Shown here: piece by piece, positions 236-64,000 of the stretch
How positions within the stretch are numbered: position 1 is the stretch's first letter
Layout of the letters: each line of letters begins with the position of its first letter
From: Novipirellula galeiformis
Lineage (GTDB): Bacteria > Planctomycetota > Planctomycetia > Pirellulales > Pirellulaceae
Length of the DNA stretch: 64,000 bases
Reading direction: 5' to 3'
Assembly (NCBI RefSeq): GCF_007860095.1
Contig: NZ_SJPT01000002.1
Coordinates: 682,001-746,000, forward strand
Notes under the pieces: model-generated
Seen by the model: the letters and a program-made list of their open reading frames with translations, nothing else
Told to the model about the DNA's origin: nothing
Database searches by the model: none
Translations under genes and position numbers: made by a program

Positions 236-309
236 GCGCCCATAGCTCAGTTGGATAGAGCAGTTGACTTCTAATCAACAGGTCGTAGGTTCGAATCCTA
301 CTGGGCGTG
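236..309 (+). tRNA. trnR(ucu): tRNA-Arg, anticodon TCT
   Basis: A full cloverleaf can be drawn. The seven-base acceptor stem pairs 236-242 with 302-308, the outermost pair being G-U. The D stem is GCTC/GAGC. The anticodon stem is GTTGA/TCAAC around the loop CTTCTAA, giving anticodon TCT, which reads AGA. The T arm is GTAGG-TTCGAAT-CCTAC. The discriminator is G309 and CCA is not encoded. It is transcribed towards the glycolate oxidase operon, whose last gene ends about 300 bases away on the other strand. Confidence 0.95.
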
Positions 310-56131: not shown

Positions 56132-57253
56132 TTACGGCCGTTCCTCGATTGGCACGAATGACCTTGGCCCGTGACCGCTGTACTCGGCCGCCGGACGGAT
56201 CAAGCGATTCTCCGCACGTTGTTCAAAGGCGTGTGCACACCATCCCGCCGTCCGGGCAAAAACAAACAGCGGCGTGAACATTGATGTCGGAATGCCCAGG
56301 CAATGGAAAACCGTGGCGCTATAAAAATCAAGATTCGGGAACAACCCTTTCTCGCGGCGCATCACCCCTTCGATACGTTCGGCAATCGCGTACAGTTGTG
56401 TCAGCGCGGTCTCTTCGCAAAGCGACTGTGACCAGCGTTTGATGATCTCAGATCGAGGGTCAGCCGATTTGTAGACTCGATGTCCGAAGCCCATGATCTT
56501 CTCTTTCCCATTCAGTTTTGCCAGCACACCTTCCTCAGCGGCTTCGGGGTCGACATAAGTTTCGATCAACTCCATGGACGCTTCATTGGCGCCACCATGC
56601 AATGGACCGCGCAACGTTCCGATCCCGGTGGTGACCGCCGAGTACAGGTCCGACATCGTCGACGCCGTGATTCGGGCAGCGAACGTTGACGCGTTGAATT
56701 CGTGTTCGGCGTACAAAATCAGTGATACATCAAGCGCTCGAGCGAGATGTTCCGAGGGGGACGTGTCATGCAACAAATGTAAGAAGTGTCCCGCCAAGTC
56801 CAAATCGTCGGTCTCGACCTCGATTTGATGGCCACCATGATGAAAGTGATGCCAATAGCAAAGCATCGACGGAAACGTGCCCAACATTCGTAACGCAATT
56901 GCGTGTTGCTCGTCGAATGAACTCTCGGGCTCAAGACAACCGAGTACCGAACACCCCGTCCGTAGCACATCCATGGGATGCGACGTTGCGGGTAATTGCT
57001 CGAGAATTGTCTTCAACGCGTCGGGAAGCGCCCGTTGGCTTCTTAAGTCTTCTCGGAACGCGACGAGTTGTTCGTAGCTCGGCAATTCGCCGTTCAGCAA
57101 CAACCAAACCACCTCTTCGAACGACGCGTGCTCGGCTAGGTCCTCGATCGCGTAACCGCGATAGGTTAATCCGAATCCTTTCTTGCCGACCGTGCTGATT
57201 GCGGTGTGACCGGCGACGACGCCCGCCATGCCTGATGACTGTGTTTGAATCAT
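56132..57253 (-). CDS. prpC: 2-methylcitrate synthase / citrate synthase
   Basis: A 373-residue enzyme of the citrate synthase family, short form. It should condense propionyl-CoA with oxaloacetate to 2-methylcitrate, often with side activity on acetyl-CoA. The catalytic triad is visible: H219 in RGPLHGGANE, H258 in MGFGHRVYK and D309 in NLDFYSATVF. The N-terminal AGVVAGHTAISTVGKKGFGLTYRGYAIEDL is typical of PrpC and short citrate synthases. ATG at 57253 is chosen, with GAGGG about five bases upstream; a GTG at 57265 overlaps the prpB stop. Linkage to prpB and to a PrpD domain nearby supports PrpC. Confidence 0.9.
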   Translation of the reverse strand: MIQTQSSGMAGVVAGHTAISTVGKKGFGLTYRGYAIEDLAEHASFEEVVWLLLNGELPSYEQLVAFREDLRSQRALPDALKTILEQLPATSHPMDVLRTGCSVLGCLEPESSFDEQHAIALRMLGTFPSMLCYWHHFHHGGHQIEVETDDLDLAGHFLHLLHDTSPSEHLARALDVSLILYAEHEFNASTFAARITASTMSDLYSAVTTGIGTLRGPLHGGANEASMELIETYVDPEAAEEGVLAKLNGKEKIMGFGHRVYKSADPRSEIIKRWSQSLCEETALTQLYAIAERIEGVMRREKGLFPNLDFYSATVFHCLGIPTSMFTPLFVFARTAGWCAHAFEQRAENRLIRPAAEYSGHGPRSFVPIEERP

Positions 57254-57264
57254 AATAGCCCTCA

Positions 57265-58149
57265 CTATTTCCGGTTTGATTTGCCTTCGGACAGTTCTTT
57301 CGCGTAGTAATCGAGTACTTCGTAGAGCTCCTCTCGTGTTTGCATCGAATCGATCAAATCAATTTGGGTCCCTGCACCACGCAGTGTTTCGTAGACGCGT
57401 GCGGCCACGGCATTCATCGCCCGATAGGCGGTCAACGGGTACAACACCAATCGTATACCCGCATCGCGCAGTTCGTCCACTGAAAACAAGGGCGTTCGCC
57501 CGAACTCGGTGATGTTCGCCAACACCGGAATTTCCACCGCCGCAGTAAATTGCCGGTATTCATCGAGCGACGTCAGCGCTTCGGCAAAAATCATGTCCAC
57601 CCCGGTCTCGACATACTGCGTCGCACGTTCGATTGCCGCATCGATCCCCTCGACCGACGCCGCGTCGGTCCGCGCCATGATCACGAAACTCGAATCGCTT
57701 CGCGCATCCAACGCCGCCTTCAAGCGATCGTTCATCTCGGGTACCGAAACGAGTTGTTTGCCCGGACGATGGCCGCATCGCTTGGCGTCGACCTGGTCCT
57801 CCAGATGCATCCCCGCCACACCGCCGCGGATAAGCTCGCGCACGGTTCGCTCGATCATTAACGCACTTCCCCAACCGGTGTCGGCATCGACCAAGAGCGG
57901 CAAGTCGGTCACCGACGTGATCCGCCGAGCATCATCAAGGACATCCGCGAGTGTCGTCACTCCCAAGTCGGGTAGCCCGTGCGAAGCGCTTGCCACTCCC
58001 GATCCAGACAAATAGAGCGCCCGAAATCCTGCTCGTTGGGCCAACAGAGCACACATGGCGTTTACCGCGCCAGGGACTTGCAGCGGAAGCTCACGGTCAA
58101 CCGCCCAACGGAAACGTTGCCCTGCAGTTGAGGGTTGCGACGCGGACAT
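57265..58149 (-). CDS. prpB: 2-methylisocitrate lyase
   Basis: A 294-residue member of the isocitrate lyase/PEP mutase superfamily, cleaving 2-methylisocitrate to pyruvate and succinate. The metal-site motif is [12 protein letters not shown] and the catalytic loop is [11 protein letters not shown] with the active-site Cys (about C125). [18 protein letters not shown] and [19 protein letters not shown] match PrpB closely. The ATG at 58149 aligns with the usual PrpB N-terminus; a longer version from 58197 is possible but its ATG lies only about 14 bases from a TATA-like box. It precedes prpC with 11 bp between the chosen genes and is transcribed away from the mutase genes. Confidence 0.92.
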
Positions 58150-58210
58150 AGCTAGCTCGCGGAAGAGTGGCTTAGCAGCCCAGATGGGACTTGCCATTTT
58201 TAAACTCGCG

Positions 58211-58245
58211 TATAATCAATTGTATCAACTTGATTGGAGCTCGTC
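58211..58245 (+). promoter_or_regulatory. Divergent prp/mcm promoter region with perfect -10 box
   Basis: TATAAT (58211-58216) is a perfect -10 hexamer on plus for the mutase operon; the same AT-rich DNA gives TTATAC on minus for prpB. Downstream, ATCAA(10)TTGAT at about 58215-58234 is an imperfect inverted repeat that could bind a regulator of both operons. GGAG (58236-58239) is the ribosome site of the mutase gene. Confidence 0.5.
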
Positions 58246-59862
58246 ATGCAATCGGTAAACGATGAACCCATCGCTGAGAAATTGGTAAGGACGACCCTTA
58301 GCGGGGCGTCTATCAAGCCCTTGTACACCCCCGCCGACTTGCCAAGTTTTTCCCCAGAGGCGGAGTTGGGACAACCAGGCCAGTTTCCCTACACACGGGG
58401 AATCCACGCATCGATGTATCGGGGACGATTGTGGACAATGCGGCAATTTGCCGGCTTTGGTCGACCACGCGACACGAACGCTCGCTTTCGTTTTTTGCTC
58501 GATCAGGGGCAAACCGGACTCAGCACGGCCTTCGACCTGCCGACGTTGATGGGGCTCGACAGCGATGATCCTCGCTGCTGTGGTGAAGTCGGGCGACTCG
58601 GCGTGGCGGTCGATACCGTCGATGACATGCTCGCGTTGTTCGACGGGATCGATTTGCACCAAGTGTCGGTATCGATGACGATCAATGCTCCCGCGATTGT
58701 CGTGATGGCGTTCTATTTGTCGGCTGCGCGCCAGCGGGGATGGGATTGGAAAGCACTGCGTGGCACGATTCAAAATGACATTCTGAAGGAATTCCACGCA
58801 CAAAACGAATTCGTGTTCCCCCCCGAGCCTTCGGTCCGTTTGGTTGTTGATCTCATTGAGTTTTGTACGCCGCATGTTCCGTTATGGAACACGGTCTCCA
58901 TCAGCGGCTATCACATTCGCGAGGCCGGTTCCACCGCGGCACAAGAATTAGCCTTCACCTTGGCCGACGGACATCACTATGTTCGCCAGTGCCTCGCTCG
59001 CGACCTGCACGTGGACGCGTTCGCGCCACGATTGAGTTTCTTTTTCAACGCCCACAACGATCTGTTCGAAGAGGTGGCCAAGTACCGAGCCGCCCGCGCG
59101 TTGTGGGCGGCGACGATGAGAGATGAGTTTGGCGCGAAGACCGAAGCTGCATGGAAACTTCGATTTCATGCTCAAACAGCAGGTTGCGCGCTGCAAGCGG
59201 TGCAGCCAGAGGTGAATTTGGTGCGTGTTGGATACCAAGCACTCGCAGCGGCGTTGGGCGGATGCCAATCGCTGCACACCAACTCGATGGACGAAACGTT
59301 AGCGTTACCGAGTGAACATGCGGTAACGCTCGCCTTGCGCACGCAACAGGTATTGGCCCATGAAACCGGAGTCACCAACACCGTTGACCCATTGGGCGGC
59401 AGTTACTTCATTGAGAGTTTTACGCGTCAAATGAAGCAGGACGCACGTGCATACTTTACTGAGATCGCCGACCAAGGGGGCATGATCGCTGCGGTCGAAA
59501 ACGGCTATTTTCGACGCAAGATTTCTGACGCAGCGTTCGCGTATCAATTAGCGATCGACGCACAAGAGAAATTGATTGTCGGCGTCAACGCGTTCCAGCA
59601 AGCCAACGAGGAACCGATCTCGGTGATGCCCTTCGACGAGTCCACCGAGGACGATCAACTTGCATCACTACGCACCGTCAAAGAGCAACGCAGCGGTGAC
59701 GAGGTTCGCCGCACGCTGACGCAGCTAAAGCAGACAGCAGAAACGGGAAACAATGTGTTTGCGGCATTGTTACAAGCTTCCGATGCCCGAGCGACGGTGC
59801 AAGAGTGCATGGATGCGATGGCTGAAGTGTACGGACGCTTTCGACCTGCTGCGGCTTGGTAG
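58246..59862 (+). CDS. mcmA1: Methylmalonyl-CoA mutase large (catalytic) subunit
   Basis: A 538-residue TIM-barrel subunit of the B12-dependent mutase that interconverts methylmalonyl-CoA and succinyl-CoA. Conserved segments are FPYTRGIHASMYRGRLWTMRQFAGFG (about 46-71), GLSTAFDLPTLMGLDSDDP (about 89-107) and SISGYHIREAGSTAAQELAFTLADG. The CoA-channel and dimer regions continue to LGGSYFIESFT near 390. It lacks its own cobalamin-binding domain, which is the next gene, as in archaeal-type split mutases. GGAG six bases upstream marks the ATG at 58246; a TTG four codons earlier is less likely. Confidence 0.95.
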   Translation: MQSVNDEPIAEKLVRTTLSGASIKPLYTPADLPSFSPEAELGQPGQFPYTRGIHASMYRGRLWTMRQFAGFGRPRDTNARFRFLLDQGQTGLSTAFDLPTLMGLDSDDPRCCGEVGRLGVAVDTVDDMLALFDGIDLHQVSVSMTINAPAIVVMAFYLSAARQRGWDWKALRGTIQNDILKEFHAQNEFVFPPEPSVRLVVDLIEFCTPHVPLWNTVSISGYHIREAGSTAAQELAFTLADGHHYVRQCLARDLHVDAFAPRLSFFFNAHNDLFEEVAKYRAARALWAATMRDEFGAKTEAAWKLRFHAQTAGCALQAVQPEVNLVRVGYQALAAALGGCQSLHTNSMDETLALPSEHAVTLALRTQQVLAHETGVTNTVDPLGGSYFIESFTRQMKQDARAYFTEIADQGGMIAAVENGYFRRKISDAAFAYQLAIDAQEKLIVGVNAFQQANEEPISVMPFDESTEDDQLASLRTVKEQRSGDEVRRTLTQLKQTAETGNNVFAALLQASDARATVQECMDAMAEVYGRFRPAAAW

Positions 59863-59881: not shown

Positions 59882-60271
59882 ATGACACAACAAACCATTG
59901 CTAAACGAATCTTGTTGGCCAAAGTCGGACTTGATGGCCATGACCGTGGGATCAAGGTTGTCGCTCGCGGATTGCGAGACGCGGGGTTCCATGTGATTTA
60001 CAGCGGCCTTTGGCAATCCATCGAGTCGGTCGCCCAGGCCGCCGAGGACGAGGATGTCGATTGGGTTGGAATCAGCGTGCTCAACGGCGCCCACATGACA
60101 CTCATCCCCGCATTATTGCAGGCTTTTCGAAAACGCGATCTGAACCACGTCGGCGTGATCGTGGGCGGGATCATTTCACACGCCGATCAACAAGAGCTAA
60201 AACGACTCGGTGCGCGAGCCTGTTTCGGCCCCGGCACATCCATCGAGTCGATCGTCCAATTTCTGAAGTAG
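59882..60271 (+). CDS. mcmA2: Methylmalonyl-CoA mutase cobalamin-binding subunit
   Basis: A 129-residue Rossmann-like B12-binding protein. The motif D-G-H-D-R-G (about 19-24, DxHxxG) supplies the histidine ligand of cobalamin, followed by [14 protein letters not shown] and the GG of [11 protein letters not shown]. It starts 19 bp after the catalytic subunit stop. It is the small half of the split mutase and ends 23 bp before the GTPase-PrpD fusion gene. Confidence 0.94.
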
Positions 60272-60294: not shown

Positions 60295-62547
60295 ATGCCG
60301 CGTCCCCGCAATCGCAACGACCTTCCGACCCTCGTCGCTCGACTTTCGCAGCGAGACCGTGGGGCACTGGCACGTCTGTTGACGTTTGCGGCGTCGCGAA
60401 CACAGCACTCCGAATTGATTGCTGCCCTTGCCAGCGCAACGACGCATGCTTCACCGGTGATCGCAATGACCGGCAGCGGAGGCGTGGGAAAGAGCAGTTT
60501 GGTCGGCTGCCTTTCGAATCATTTTGCCTCGCGTGGCGAAGCGGTCGGCGTGCTCGCTTGCGATCCCCAGAGTCCTGTTACGGGAGGTGCGTTGCTGGGG
60601 GATCGATGCCGCATCGTCAACTCCGAATTCGCCGACCGCGTCTTTGTCCGTAGCCTGTCGACCGCTTCGGGGCACCAAGGTGTCGCACAAAACTTGGCAT
60701 TGATGTTGCTCGCGATGCAAGTCTACGGATTCGATCGAATTTTTGTCGAAACCGTTGGCATTGGTCAAGGCGATATCGCGGTGCGTGATCTCGCCGATAT
60801 CGTCGTCCTGGTAATCCAACCGCAAACCGGCGACGAACTGCAATGGGAAAAGGCAGGCATCTTGGAGGTCGTCGATTTAGTCGTGGTCAATAAATCGGAT
60901 CTAGCGGGAGCCGACCAGACGAAACGTGACGTAAAACAACAGCTTCACTCACCGGCGCTGCGTGCCATCCCCGTCATCAGCACCTCGATTGCGAAGAGAG
61001 AAGGAATCGAAACGCTTTGTCTAGAAATCGACCAAGTCCTCCGCAAATCTGCTAAAAAGGAGATGAGCGATGCGGAGTCTTCCGGCCAGTCCGACGTTTT
61101 GGTAGGACGCAAAATGCAAAGCATTGAACCTTCAGCGGTAATAGCGAGTTCCGATCTCGTGTTGGATCAGATCGCCGACTATGTGTGTGCTTCCGCAAAC
61201 TTTAGCGATGAAGCGTGGGCCACAGCTCGAGTCTGTCTGCTCGACAGCCTGGGGTGTGGGTTGCTCTCGCTTCGCTACCCGCAATGCACCAAGTTGTTAG
61301 GCCCGGTCGTACCGGGGGCGACGCTGCAAAACGGTGCACGGGTGCCTGGGACCTCGTACGTCTTGGATCCCGTCACCGCGGCGTTCAACCTCGGTTGTAT
61401 GATCCGTTGGCTCGATTACAACGACACCTGGCTGGCCGCAGAATGGGGGCACCCGTCGGATAATTTTGGCGGCATTCTAGCAGTAGCGGATTATCTCAGT
61501 CGCCAAGATCAAGCGTTAGCCATGCGCGATGTGCTGGTCGCTGCCATCAAGGCCTACGAAATCCAAGGGGTGTTGGCGCTACAACATGCCTTCAATCGAG
61601 TCGGGTTGGATCATGTGATTTTGGTCCGGATTGCAACCACCGCGGTGGTGACGCGTATGCTCGGCGGGACACGACGACAAGTAATCAATGCGCTCAGCAA
61701 CGCTTGGCTCGATGGCGGGGCGCTGCGCACCTATCGCCATGCCCCCAACACTGGAACCCGCAAAAGCTGGGCGGCCGGCGATGCCACCCGTCGAGGAGTC
61801 CAGCTTGCGTTATGGAGCATGGCCGGTGAGATGGGCTACCCCACCGCCCTTTCGGCACCGCGATGGGGCTTCGAAGATGTCGTCTTGGCGGGAGAAACGC
61901 TATCGATTCCTCGACCTTTGGGCTGCTATGTCATCGAAAATATCCTTTTCAAAGTCGCATTTCCCGCAGAATTCCACGCTCAAACCGCAGCCGAAGCGGC
62001 GATCCAATTACACGATCAAGTCGCCGGTCGATGGGACGCAATCGAGCGGATTCGGATTGAAACGCAGGAATCAGCGATGCGAATCATCAACAAAACGGGC
62101 CCCCTCTCCAACGCCGCCGATCGTGACCATTGCCTCCAATACATTGTCGCGGTGGCGCTGCGAAAGGGACGACTTGATTCGGATCACTACGAACAAGCCA
62201 CAGCCGACGATCCCGCCATCGACGCGATGCGCGATCGAATGGAGGTCGTCGAGAAACCCCGGTATTCGACCGATTACCTCGATCCCGATAAACGCTCGAT
62301 CGCAAATGCGGTCCAAGTCTATTTCTCCGATGGAACAGCGACGGAGCGAATCGAAGTCGAATACCCCCTCGGCCACCGCCGCCGTCGCGCAGAAGCGTTA
62401 CCGAAGCTACGTGACAAATTCCGAGTCAACGTCGGGTCTCGATTCGCTCCGGGACGCGTCTCATCGCTCGAGCAATTTTTTGATGCCGGAGACGACTTCA
62501 ACGACATGCCGGTCCGCAACTTCATGAACGAGTTTGCCCAGACATGA
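60295..62547 (+). CDS. Fusion of MeaB/ArgK-type GTPase and PrpD 2-methylcitrate dehydratase
   Basis: A 750-residue open frame with two modules. Residues about 1-255 are the G3E-type GTPase that loads and protects methylmalonyl-CoA mutase: Walker [10 protein letters not shown] (60-68), [17 protein letters not shown], the [13 protein letters not shown] motif and NKSD (199-202). The C-terminal dimerisation arm of MeaB seems missing. Residues 274-750 (477) are a full-length MmgE/PrpD protein, with [23 protein letters not shown]. They would dehydrate 2-methylcitrate. A linker (about 256-273) joins them. An in-frame ATG at 61114 (Met274), with AGGA seven bases upstream, could also initiate PrpD alone. 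The ATG at 60295 begins the GTPase domain; upstream frame overlaps mcmA2. Confidence 0.9.
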
Positions 62548-62597
62548 AAAAGAATCAACTAAGTATGCCCGCACGGTCCTATTCCTAGGAGAGATTG

Positions 62598-64000
62598 GTG
62601 GCAACATTGCGTAACCTCACTGACGAATTGCTTCACCAAGAGGCGACGCTGCGGCAAGGTGGAGGTGCGGACGGTCAGCAACGACAACGACGCCATGGTC
62701 GATTGCCGGTGCGTGAGCGAATTGCGTTGCTGTTGGACAAAGATTGTCCCTTTTTTGAATTGGGCGTGTGGGCCGCATACGGGATGTACGAATCGTGGGG
62801 TGGCGTTCCCGCGGCCGGGATTGTGACAGGCATCGGAACGGTCAAAGGGCGAGCCGTCTTAGTCGCCGCCAACGACGCGACGGTCAAGGCAGGGGCGATG
62901 TTTCCTCAGTCGGTAAAGAAGTTGCTCCGCGCGCAAAAGATTGCCAATCAGTTTCGTTTGCCGGTGATCTATTTAGTCGATTCGGCCGGGGTGTTCCTGC
63001 CGTTGCAAGATGAAGTGTTTCCGGACGAGGACGATTTCGGTCGCATCTTTCGCAACAACGCCGTGCTCTCGGCGGCGGGGATCCCGCAATACGCCGCCGT
63101 GATGGGCAATTGCATCGCCGGTGGGGCGTACCTGCCTGTGTTGTGCGACAAAATGCTGATGACCGACGGCAGTCAGCTCTGTTTGGCTGGCCCCGCTTTG
63201 GTCAAAGCTGCGATTGGACAAACGGTCGATCCTGAGGACTTGGGGGGGGCGGCGATGCACGCAGCGATCAGCGGCACGGTCGATTTCCATGAGCCCGACG
63301 ACCCTTCCTGCCTAAAGCGATTACGTGCTTTGGTGGACCTGTTACCGAAACCGGCGGAGACTCATCTCGAGCAACAACCGGTAATCGGTGACCGCCTCTA
63401 CGATCTCGTCTCAGCAGACGGTCGAGGCGAATACGATGTGCGTGAGGTGCTCCGATGTATCGTCGACTCCGATTCGTTGCAGGAATATAAGGCCGAGTTT
63501 GGGAAGACGATAGTGACCACGTTTGCCAAAATCGGTGGGCACGCGATCGGGGTGGTCGCCAACCAAAAAGTTCGTTGTCGAACCGCCAGCGGCGAGATTC
63601 AAATCGGCGGCGTGATCTATCCCGATGCAGCGGACAAGGCCGCACGGTTCGTGATGGATTGTAACCAAACGCGAATCCCCTTGGTGTTCGTTCAGGATGT
63701 CCAAGGATTTATGGTCGGCAAACAAGCTGAACAAGCGGGAATCATTCGCGCCGGCGCGAAGCTGGTCAATGTCGTTAGCAACTCGATCGTCCCCAAATTG
63801 ACCGTCATCATCGGAGGTTCATTTGGTGCGGGTCATTATGCAATGTGCGGCAAAGCCTACGACCCGGCCCTGATCCTCGCCTGGCCGTCAGCGAAATACG
63901 CCGTCATGGGAGGCAATCAAGCGGCCGACACCTTGCTCGCTCTACAACTACGCGAAGCCCAACGCAATGGGCGTGTACTTGCGGAACAGGAAGTCGGCGA
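62598..64000 (+). CDS. Acyl-CoA carboxylase carboxyltransferase beta subunit (partial)
   Basis: At least 467 residues, running off the window. It is a biotin-dependent carboxyltransferase of the propionyl-/methylcrotonyl-CoA carboxylase beta type: LPVRERIALLLD, SAGVFLPLQDEVFPDEDDFG, NCIAGGAYLPVLCD, PLVFVQDVQGFMVG and SFGAGHYAMCGKAYDP then YAVMGGNQAA. The D-E-V-F-P-D-x-x-x-F-G segment leans to the methylcrotonyl/geranyl-CoA group, but the neighbours suggest propionyl-CoA, feeding methylmalonyl-CoA to the mutase. GTG at 62598 is chosen because AGGAGA lies about five bases upstream; TTG at 62595 is adjacent. A biotin carboxylase subunit is expected downstream. Confidence 0.92.
   Translation, partial: MATLRNLTDELLHQEATLRQGGGADGQQRQRRHGRLPVRERIALLLDKDCPFFELGVWAAYGMYESWGGVPAAGIVTGIGTVKGRAVLVAANDATVKAGAMFPQSVKKLLRAQKIANQFRLPVIYLVDSAGVFLPLQDEVFPDEDDFGRIFRNNAVLSAAGIPQYAAVMGNCIAGGAYLPVLCDKMLMTDGSQLCLAGPALVKAAIGQTVDPEDLGGAAMHAAISGTVDFHEPDDPSCLKRLRALVDLLPKPAETHLEQQPVIGDRLYDLVSADGRGEYDVREVLRCIVDSDSLQEYKAEFGKTIVTTFAKIGGHAIGVVANQKVRCRTASGEIQIGGVIYPDAADKAARFVMDCNQTRIPLVFVQDVQGFMVGKQAEQAGIIRAGAKLVNVVSNSIVPKLTVIIGGSFGAGHYAMCGKAYDPALILAWPSAKYAVMGGNQAADTLLALQLREAQRNGRVLAEQEVG

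Follow-up and report, generated by a model that had tools for sequence, protein, structure and literature searches.

An in-frame fusion of a MeaB-type G protein with 2-methylcitrate dehydratase, conserved in two genera of planctomycetes

The locus described herein lies near the 3′ end of the window, a stretch of 64,000 nucleotides from Novipirellula galeiformis (Table 1). Two genes of the methylcitrate cycle, prpC and prpB, are read divergently from an operon that opens with the two subunit genes of an adenosylcobalamin (AdoCbl)-dependent acyl-CoA mutase (icmA and icmB), continues with a single gene in which a MeaB-type G domain is joined to 2-methylcitrate dehydratase (PrpD), and proceeds to an acyl-CoA carboxylase carboxyltransferase (CT) subunit gene. 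For icmA, the ATG at 58246 was used (the list of open reading frames begins at the TTG at 58234), and for icmB the ATG at 59882 was picked by alignment (the list begins at 59753). Beyond the window, genes for an AtuA-family protein, an enoyl-CoA hydratase (ECH) and an ACAD9/VLCAD-like acyl-CoA dehydrogenase (ACAD) extend the operon (L165:8320-12727, window-equivalent 64320-68727); the same set is also found downstream of prpD in several planctomycetes. An IS200-like Y1 transposase gene lies further downstream (L165:16363-17064). With cmscan, run over the window plus six loci, neither a cobalamin riboswitch nor any other known RNA was detected in the operon; the only Rfam match was a tRNA gene at 236-309 (+) of the window.

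Table 1. Genes and parts of genes at the fusion locus, in window coordinates.
Feature	Position	Strand	Evidence
prpC, 2-methylcitrate synthase	56132..57265	-	NF009006 556.6 bits, cut-off 550
prpB, 2-methylisocitrate lyase	57265..58197	-	TIGR02317 403.1 bits, cut-off 354.4; NF008455 459.3, cut-off 353
icmA, AdoCbl-dependent acyl-CoA mutase catalytic subunit, isobutyryl-CoA-mutase-like	58246..59862	+	PF01642 697.5 bits
icmB, cobalamin-binding subunit of the same mutase	59882..60271	+	PF02310 98.8 bits; TIGR00640 144.3 bits, cut-off 57.45
meaB::prpD fusion gene, 750 aa	60295..62547	+	Pfam and NCBIfam profiles
MeaB-type G domain, residues 1-247, without C-terminal dimerisation arm	60295..61035	+	PF03308
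Linker, residues 248-285, unconserved, with ATG 61063 and ATG 61114	61036..61149	+	dN/dS
2-methylcitrate dehydratase (PrpD) part, residues 286-750	61150..62547	+	TIGR02330, 5mux, AlphaFold2
Acyl-CoA carboxylase carboxyltransferase (CT) subunit	62595..64000, continues past the window to 64181	+	PF01039

The frame of the fusion gene is open throughout, with its sole stop at the 3′ end; the other two forward frames over the same interval contain 23 and 16 stops. The original prediction, made from the letters of this DNA, that MeaB and PrpD are joined in one uninterrupted frame was borne out. Both domains are matched by Pfam, with PF03308 (MeaB) covering residues 25-261 (182.6 bits, above the gathering cut-off of 23.1), MmgE_PrpD_N (PF03972) residues 292-536 (288.4 bits) and MmgE_PrpD_C (PF19305) residues 556-720 (186.3 bits), and no stop lies between them. 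The PrpD part is also full length, as had been proposed: TIGR02330 is matched over positions 1-466 of 468 with 730.6 bits (cut-off 458), the best solved-structure match is 5mux (652 bits), and the AlphaFold2 model of this part lies mostly above 90 pLDDT. For most of residues 1-284 the model falls below 50, with a single MeaB row in the alignment, and it is uninformative on the G domain and the junction.

The fusion is intact in five genomes of two genera, namely the source genome (G000) and G001 in one, and G008, G073 and G103 in the other (g7). Among the three genomes of the source genus, the third (G002) is split, each half lying at the end of a different contig; in g7 each fusion lies on a single contig and shares 65-66% identity with that of the source. 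Five intact genomes, three of them single-contig, rule out a sequencing or assembly artefact, and the fusion is real and conserved. Two separate genes in relatives, with a conserved start at 61114, had been named beforehand as the outcome that would speak against a joined product; the opposite is seen, as four further genomes carry the same frame (744-750 aa, 65-67% identity). No further fusion was found among 241 genomes of the family (68 genera), nor in overlapping samples of 396 order, 397 class and 392 phylum genomes (for the phylum, among the matches listed, best first), in which PrpD and MeaB match as separate genes. Outside the phylum, none was present among the best 80 of 594 stretches from a scan of genome contigs, and none of the five pattern matches in viral contigs is a relative.

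Pairwise comparison of the five intact genes gave a dN/dS of 0.13-0.24 in the MeaB half (all 10 pairs) and of 0.07-0.16 in the PrpD half (8 of 10 pairs, two being saturated); both halves are under purifying selection. For the linker, with 28 aligned codons, it is 0.97-1.41 in the three close pairs that can be read, the other seven being saturated. In a tree of MeaB parts the fused ones form one clade (support 91/90), whose sister is the separate MeaB of the related genome G316 (99/99). The fused PrpD parts likewise form one clade (95/88), and the PrpD of G316 is placed elsewhere. A single origin of the fusion is the simplest reading.

Nine P-loop and switch I, II and III residues of MeaB listed in PMC10481361 (K68, S69, D92, D105, R108, E154, D182, Q185 and K188) were compared via alignment to 8dpb, and all nine are identical in the fusion. 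Both halves look functional. The six fusion-lineage genomes yielded no second full MeaB: their other PF03308 matches cover 40-55 profile positions with at most 24.1 bits; in each of the five intact genomes the fusion is the sole full MeaB found. PF19305 also matches once in each of these five, which makes the fusion their sole PrpD. With no other full MeaB and no other PrpD in each genome, functioning pathways would require both halves to be active. The cobalamin adenosyltransferase family PF01923 is present in all seven genomes asked.

According to alignments with solved structures, the operon mutase has Phe at the position of Tyr89 of methylmalonyl-CoA mutase (MCM) and Gln at that of Arg207; 5req is the Y89F mutant. 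Phe and Gln (F/Q) at the two specificity positions mark isobutyryl-CoA mutase (ICM), and the two IcmF rows in the alignment, both F/Q, agree with this rule. The same pair occurs in every operon mutase in which both positions are visible. Internal controls gave F/Q in the IcmFs, Tyr/Arg (Y/R) in the MCMs of G147, G001 and G002, and I/Q in the HCM-like enzyme of G055, which has Asp at the position of HCM Asp117. The two determinant sites of acyl-CoA mutase specificity, with Tyr and Arg in MCM, are given in PMC7238569, citing Jost et al. Because Phe and Gln stand where MCM has Tyr and Arg, the operon mutase looks isobutyryl-CoA-mutase-like rather than like a typical MCM. When 34 mutases are placed in one tree, the 18 operon enzymes group in a single clade (99/98) and 11 Y/R enzymes in another (96/94). 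Two F/Q enzymes of another family (G740 and G801) group, though weakly supported (87/72), with the Y/R enzymes, and the Phe/Gln pair does not mark one clade. The original interpretation was supported in part: a single conserved MeaB-PrpD protein does lie in an operon with an AdoCbl mutase, with prpB and, in the source genome, prpC adjoining, but the Phe/Gln pair speaks against that mutase being MCM. One stretch of G001 (L166, G001:C2:134000-152000) holds a Tyr/Arg MCM pair and no MeaB.

Among solved structures, CT is closest to AccD1 (408 bits), followed by an entry titled propionyl-CoA carboxylase beta (393 bits) and by methylcrotonyl-CoA carboxylase (392 bits); classical PCC beta chains score lower. 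The acyl-CoA dehydrogenase is nearest to ACAD9/VLCAD, not to ACAD8, so that isobutyryl-CoA is not singled out as the substrate.

Gene order at these and other loci suggests how the two halves may have come together. At the fusion loci, prpB, with or without prpC, is divergent from icmA-icmB-[meaB::prpD]-CT-AtuA-ECH, and ACAD follows wherever the stretch is long enough; both prpB and prpC adjoin the fusion in G000, G008, G073 and G103, and prpB alone in the stretches examined of G001 and G002. G316 has icmA-icmB-meaB-CT-AtuA-ECH and, on a different contig, prpB-prpC-prpD. In G1134, prpC-prpB is divergent from prpD-CT-AtuA-ECH-ACAD, with no icm genes in 12 kb (L103 is similar), and G101 has prpB-prpC-prpD-CT-AtuA-ACAD. 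A merger of a mutase cassette with a prpD cluster is suggested because G316 has the icm-meaB-CT operon, G1134 has the prpD-CT cluster, and the MeaB and PrpD trees disagree on G316. The CT of the source is 80% identical to that of G316 and 67-69% identical to the CT of prpD-CT clusters; G316 may have lost prpD from a once-joined cluster rather than show the state before the merger. An operon-type mutase (at least 67% identity) occurs in 11 genomes of the family, seven of which also match PrpD with an E-value of 1e-50 or lower, and in six of these seven the two are joined (for G002, as judged from its contig ends). The exception, G890, has both genes unfused and shows that the combination can exist without the fusion. 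There, prpC-prpB is divergent from icmA-(icmB::meaB) and an acyl-CoA synthetase-like gene (named by sequence, not by family search), and prpD-CT-AtuA-ECH lies on another contig. Outside the phylum, a mutase was found near prpD at one of the 80 best-matching PrpD loci, that of Paenibacillus contaminans, in which prpB-prpC-prpD is followed directly by an IcmF gene of 1094 codons (L058:3943-10692). Beside the prpD of G264 (L226:10602-15843), many overlapping frames share a repeated peptide pattern that looks like a CRISPR-type repeat array.

As predicted, the usual C-terminal arm of MeaB is lost: the TIGR00750 match covers positions 2-238 of 300 and scores 188.9 bits, below the curated cut-off of 240.75. 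In the MeaB of M. extorquens, the dimerisation arm begins after about residue 293, according to PMC9974510. The fusion was compared with 14 relatives of its MeaB part from the same order that are not fused to PrpD, the long form and IcmF being left out. Ten of them stop no more than 8 residues away from fusion residue 250, including the closest relative, that of G316; the other four, from family f14, have an additional 56-58 residues. Four long MeaBs have 71-82 extra residues. An adjoining F/Q mutase was seen for 10 of the 14 relatives, G023 has one on a separate contig, and none was found in the stretches examined of G182, G149 and G157. In G147, a long MeaB adjoins a Y/R MCM and a short MeaB adjoins an F/Q mutase. 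The idea that PrpD replaces the arm, which tied arm loss to the fusion, does not agree with these ten relatives, which are likewise arm-less. Arm loss thus tracks the F/Q type of mutase rather than PrpD. If G316 has lost prpD, it would not by itself show that arm loss preceded the fusion, but the other arm-less relatives would still do so.

The explanation favored here, which is considered probable, is that the merger of a prpD cluster and a mutase cassette yielded a bifunctional protein, part chaperone and part dehydratase, in which each half retains its usual function. The N-terminal half would be an arm-less MeaB-type G-protein chaperone for the upstream icmA-icmB mutase, which, through GTP binding and hydrolysis, would open the mutase for loading and repair of adenosylcobalamin. 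The C-terminal half would be an ordinary 2-methylcitrate dehydratase that, together with the products of the divergent prpB-prpC, completes the methylcitrate cycle. The two would be tied by a flexible linker, so that they are made 1:1 and kept together. Judging from gene content, the mutase, acyl-CoA dehydrogenase, hydratase and CT of the operon may act on short or branched acyl-CoAs; part of these would end as propionyl-CoA, to be removed by the methylcitrate cycle. The merger of operons would have put both cassettes under one promoter, and in-frame joining would have come after. Switch III pairing would likely be reached by oligomerisation, as in IcmF, perhaps aided by PrpD. The TIGR00750 score of the MeaB part was counted against this bifunctional reading, as were the unfused genes of G890 and the F/Q enzymes G740 and G801 that fall with the Y/R clade; the adjacency in Paenibacillus contaminans is an independent point in its favor but a single case in 80. 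The frame, its conservation, the selection acting on each half, the catalytic residues and the gene context are observed, whereas the biochemical activities, the substrate and any benefit of the tether are inferred.

A serious rival, although a tentative one, is neutral read-through, in which the stop between neighboring operon genes was lost and the joined protein acts as two proteins with a functionless tether. The gene neighborhood would account for the joining, the dN/dS of the linker is about 1, and both G890 and G316 manage without the fusion; against this, the fusion has been kept while the MeaB parts of the two genera diverged to 57-59% identity, and no re-split was seen in the five intact cases.

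PrpD is oligomeric in known cases, and a further, rather doubtful possibility is that its dimer is a platform that holds the arm-less G domains close enough for GTP hydrolysis via switch III, functionally replacing the arm. The fusion lacks the arm and keeps the switch residues, and PMC10481361 and PMC9974510 state that GTP hydrolysis by MeaB needs switch III of the neighboring protomer, across the dimer. IcmF, itself without the arm, requires oligomerisation for an active pair of G domains, as described in PMC10481361. The 10 of 14 unfused relatives that are arm-less too presumably manage without PrpD, the linker (about 30-40 residues) shows no conservation, and the AlphaFold2 model is silent on the very region concerned; these points weigh against a platform. 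An extension of this idea, which appears unlikely, is that the PrpD dimer scaffolds the G protein and that the assembly or ligand state of PrpD controls GTP hydrolysis, and so the B12 loading of the separate ICM-like mutase. If true, a metabolic enzyme would be the regulatory half of a metallochaperone.

It was originally suggested that the G domain serves MCM and that the fusion balances propionyl-CoA between competing methylmalonyl and methylcitrate routes, which is now improbable. NCBIfam does assign the operon mutase to the broad MCM N-terminal subfamily, and a Y/R MCM pair is encoded elsewhere in G001 and G002 (three PF01642 matches each), the fusion being the only full MeaB found in G001; in these two genomes it might also serve MCM. 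The Phe/Gln pair of the operon mutase speaks against this suggestion, as does the single PF01642 match in each of G000, G008, G073 and G103: no MCM or second mutase was found in these four of the six fusion genomes, the source genome (a 30-contig assembly rated 100% complete) included.

Production of a separate PrpD alongside the full fusion from the internal ATG at 61114 (residue 274) is very improbable: this ATG and its upstream AGGA do exist, as noted at the outset, but the position aligns with a non-Met residue in all four other intact fusions (in an uncertain linker alignment), the G073 linker has no ATG at all and the other three have theirs at different places, which rules out a conserved internal start and leaves a second product that would at best be peculiar to the source species.

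Compared with MeaB/MMAA (ArgK family, PF03308), the fusion has the same P-loop and switch residues and likewise lies beside an AdoCbl mutase, but it is without the C-terminal arm, scores below the TIGR00750 cut-off and has as its partner PrpD, an enzyme that does not use B12. With IcmF it shares an arm-less MeaB-type domain within a larger polypeptide and a Phe/Gln mutase as client. The architecture is a different one: IcmF unites a B12 domain, a G domain and its mutase in a single chain, whereas the fusion locus has three genes, with a separate client and with PrpD as the partner of the G domain. The stand-alone arm-less MeaBs of planctomycete icmA-icmB-meaB operons have the same operon order and the same G-domain end. 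The nearest of them, that of G316 (L132, 56% identity), has, unlike the fusion, a stop codon right after the G domain, with prpD on another contig. As a PrpD/MmgE protein (TIGR02330), the fusion is full length and well over the cut-off, but it carries a 285-residue N-terminal extension.

MeaB joined to its client is known from IcmF; MeaB joined to a metabolic enzyme that is not its client was not met in the searches, and no publication naming both MeaB and PrpD turned up in the library searched. Where MeaB had earlier been separate or fused to its client, the chaperone is here fused to a non-client enzyme, in genomes in which it is the sole MeaB found. This makes the fusion a natural test of how a G-protein chaperone functions without a dimerisation arm, and hints at a functional link between isobutyryl-CoA-mutase-like chemistry and the methylcitrate cycle. 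It also serves as a warning that operons of MeaB and a mutase should not be read as MCM before the two specificity residues are checked. A second kind of MeaB fusion exists in the same family: in G023 (L139), G147 (L140) and G890 (L224), a cobalamin-binding subunit is fused in frame to an arm-less MeaB beside F/Q mutases, in the order icmB::meaB that corresponds to the N-terminal half of IcmF. Those of G023 and G147 count among the ten arm-less relatives, and that of G890 is additional.
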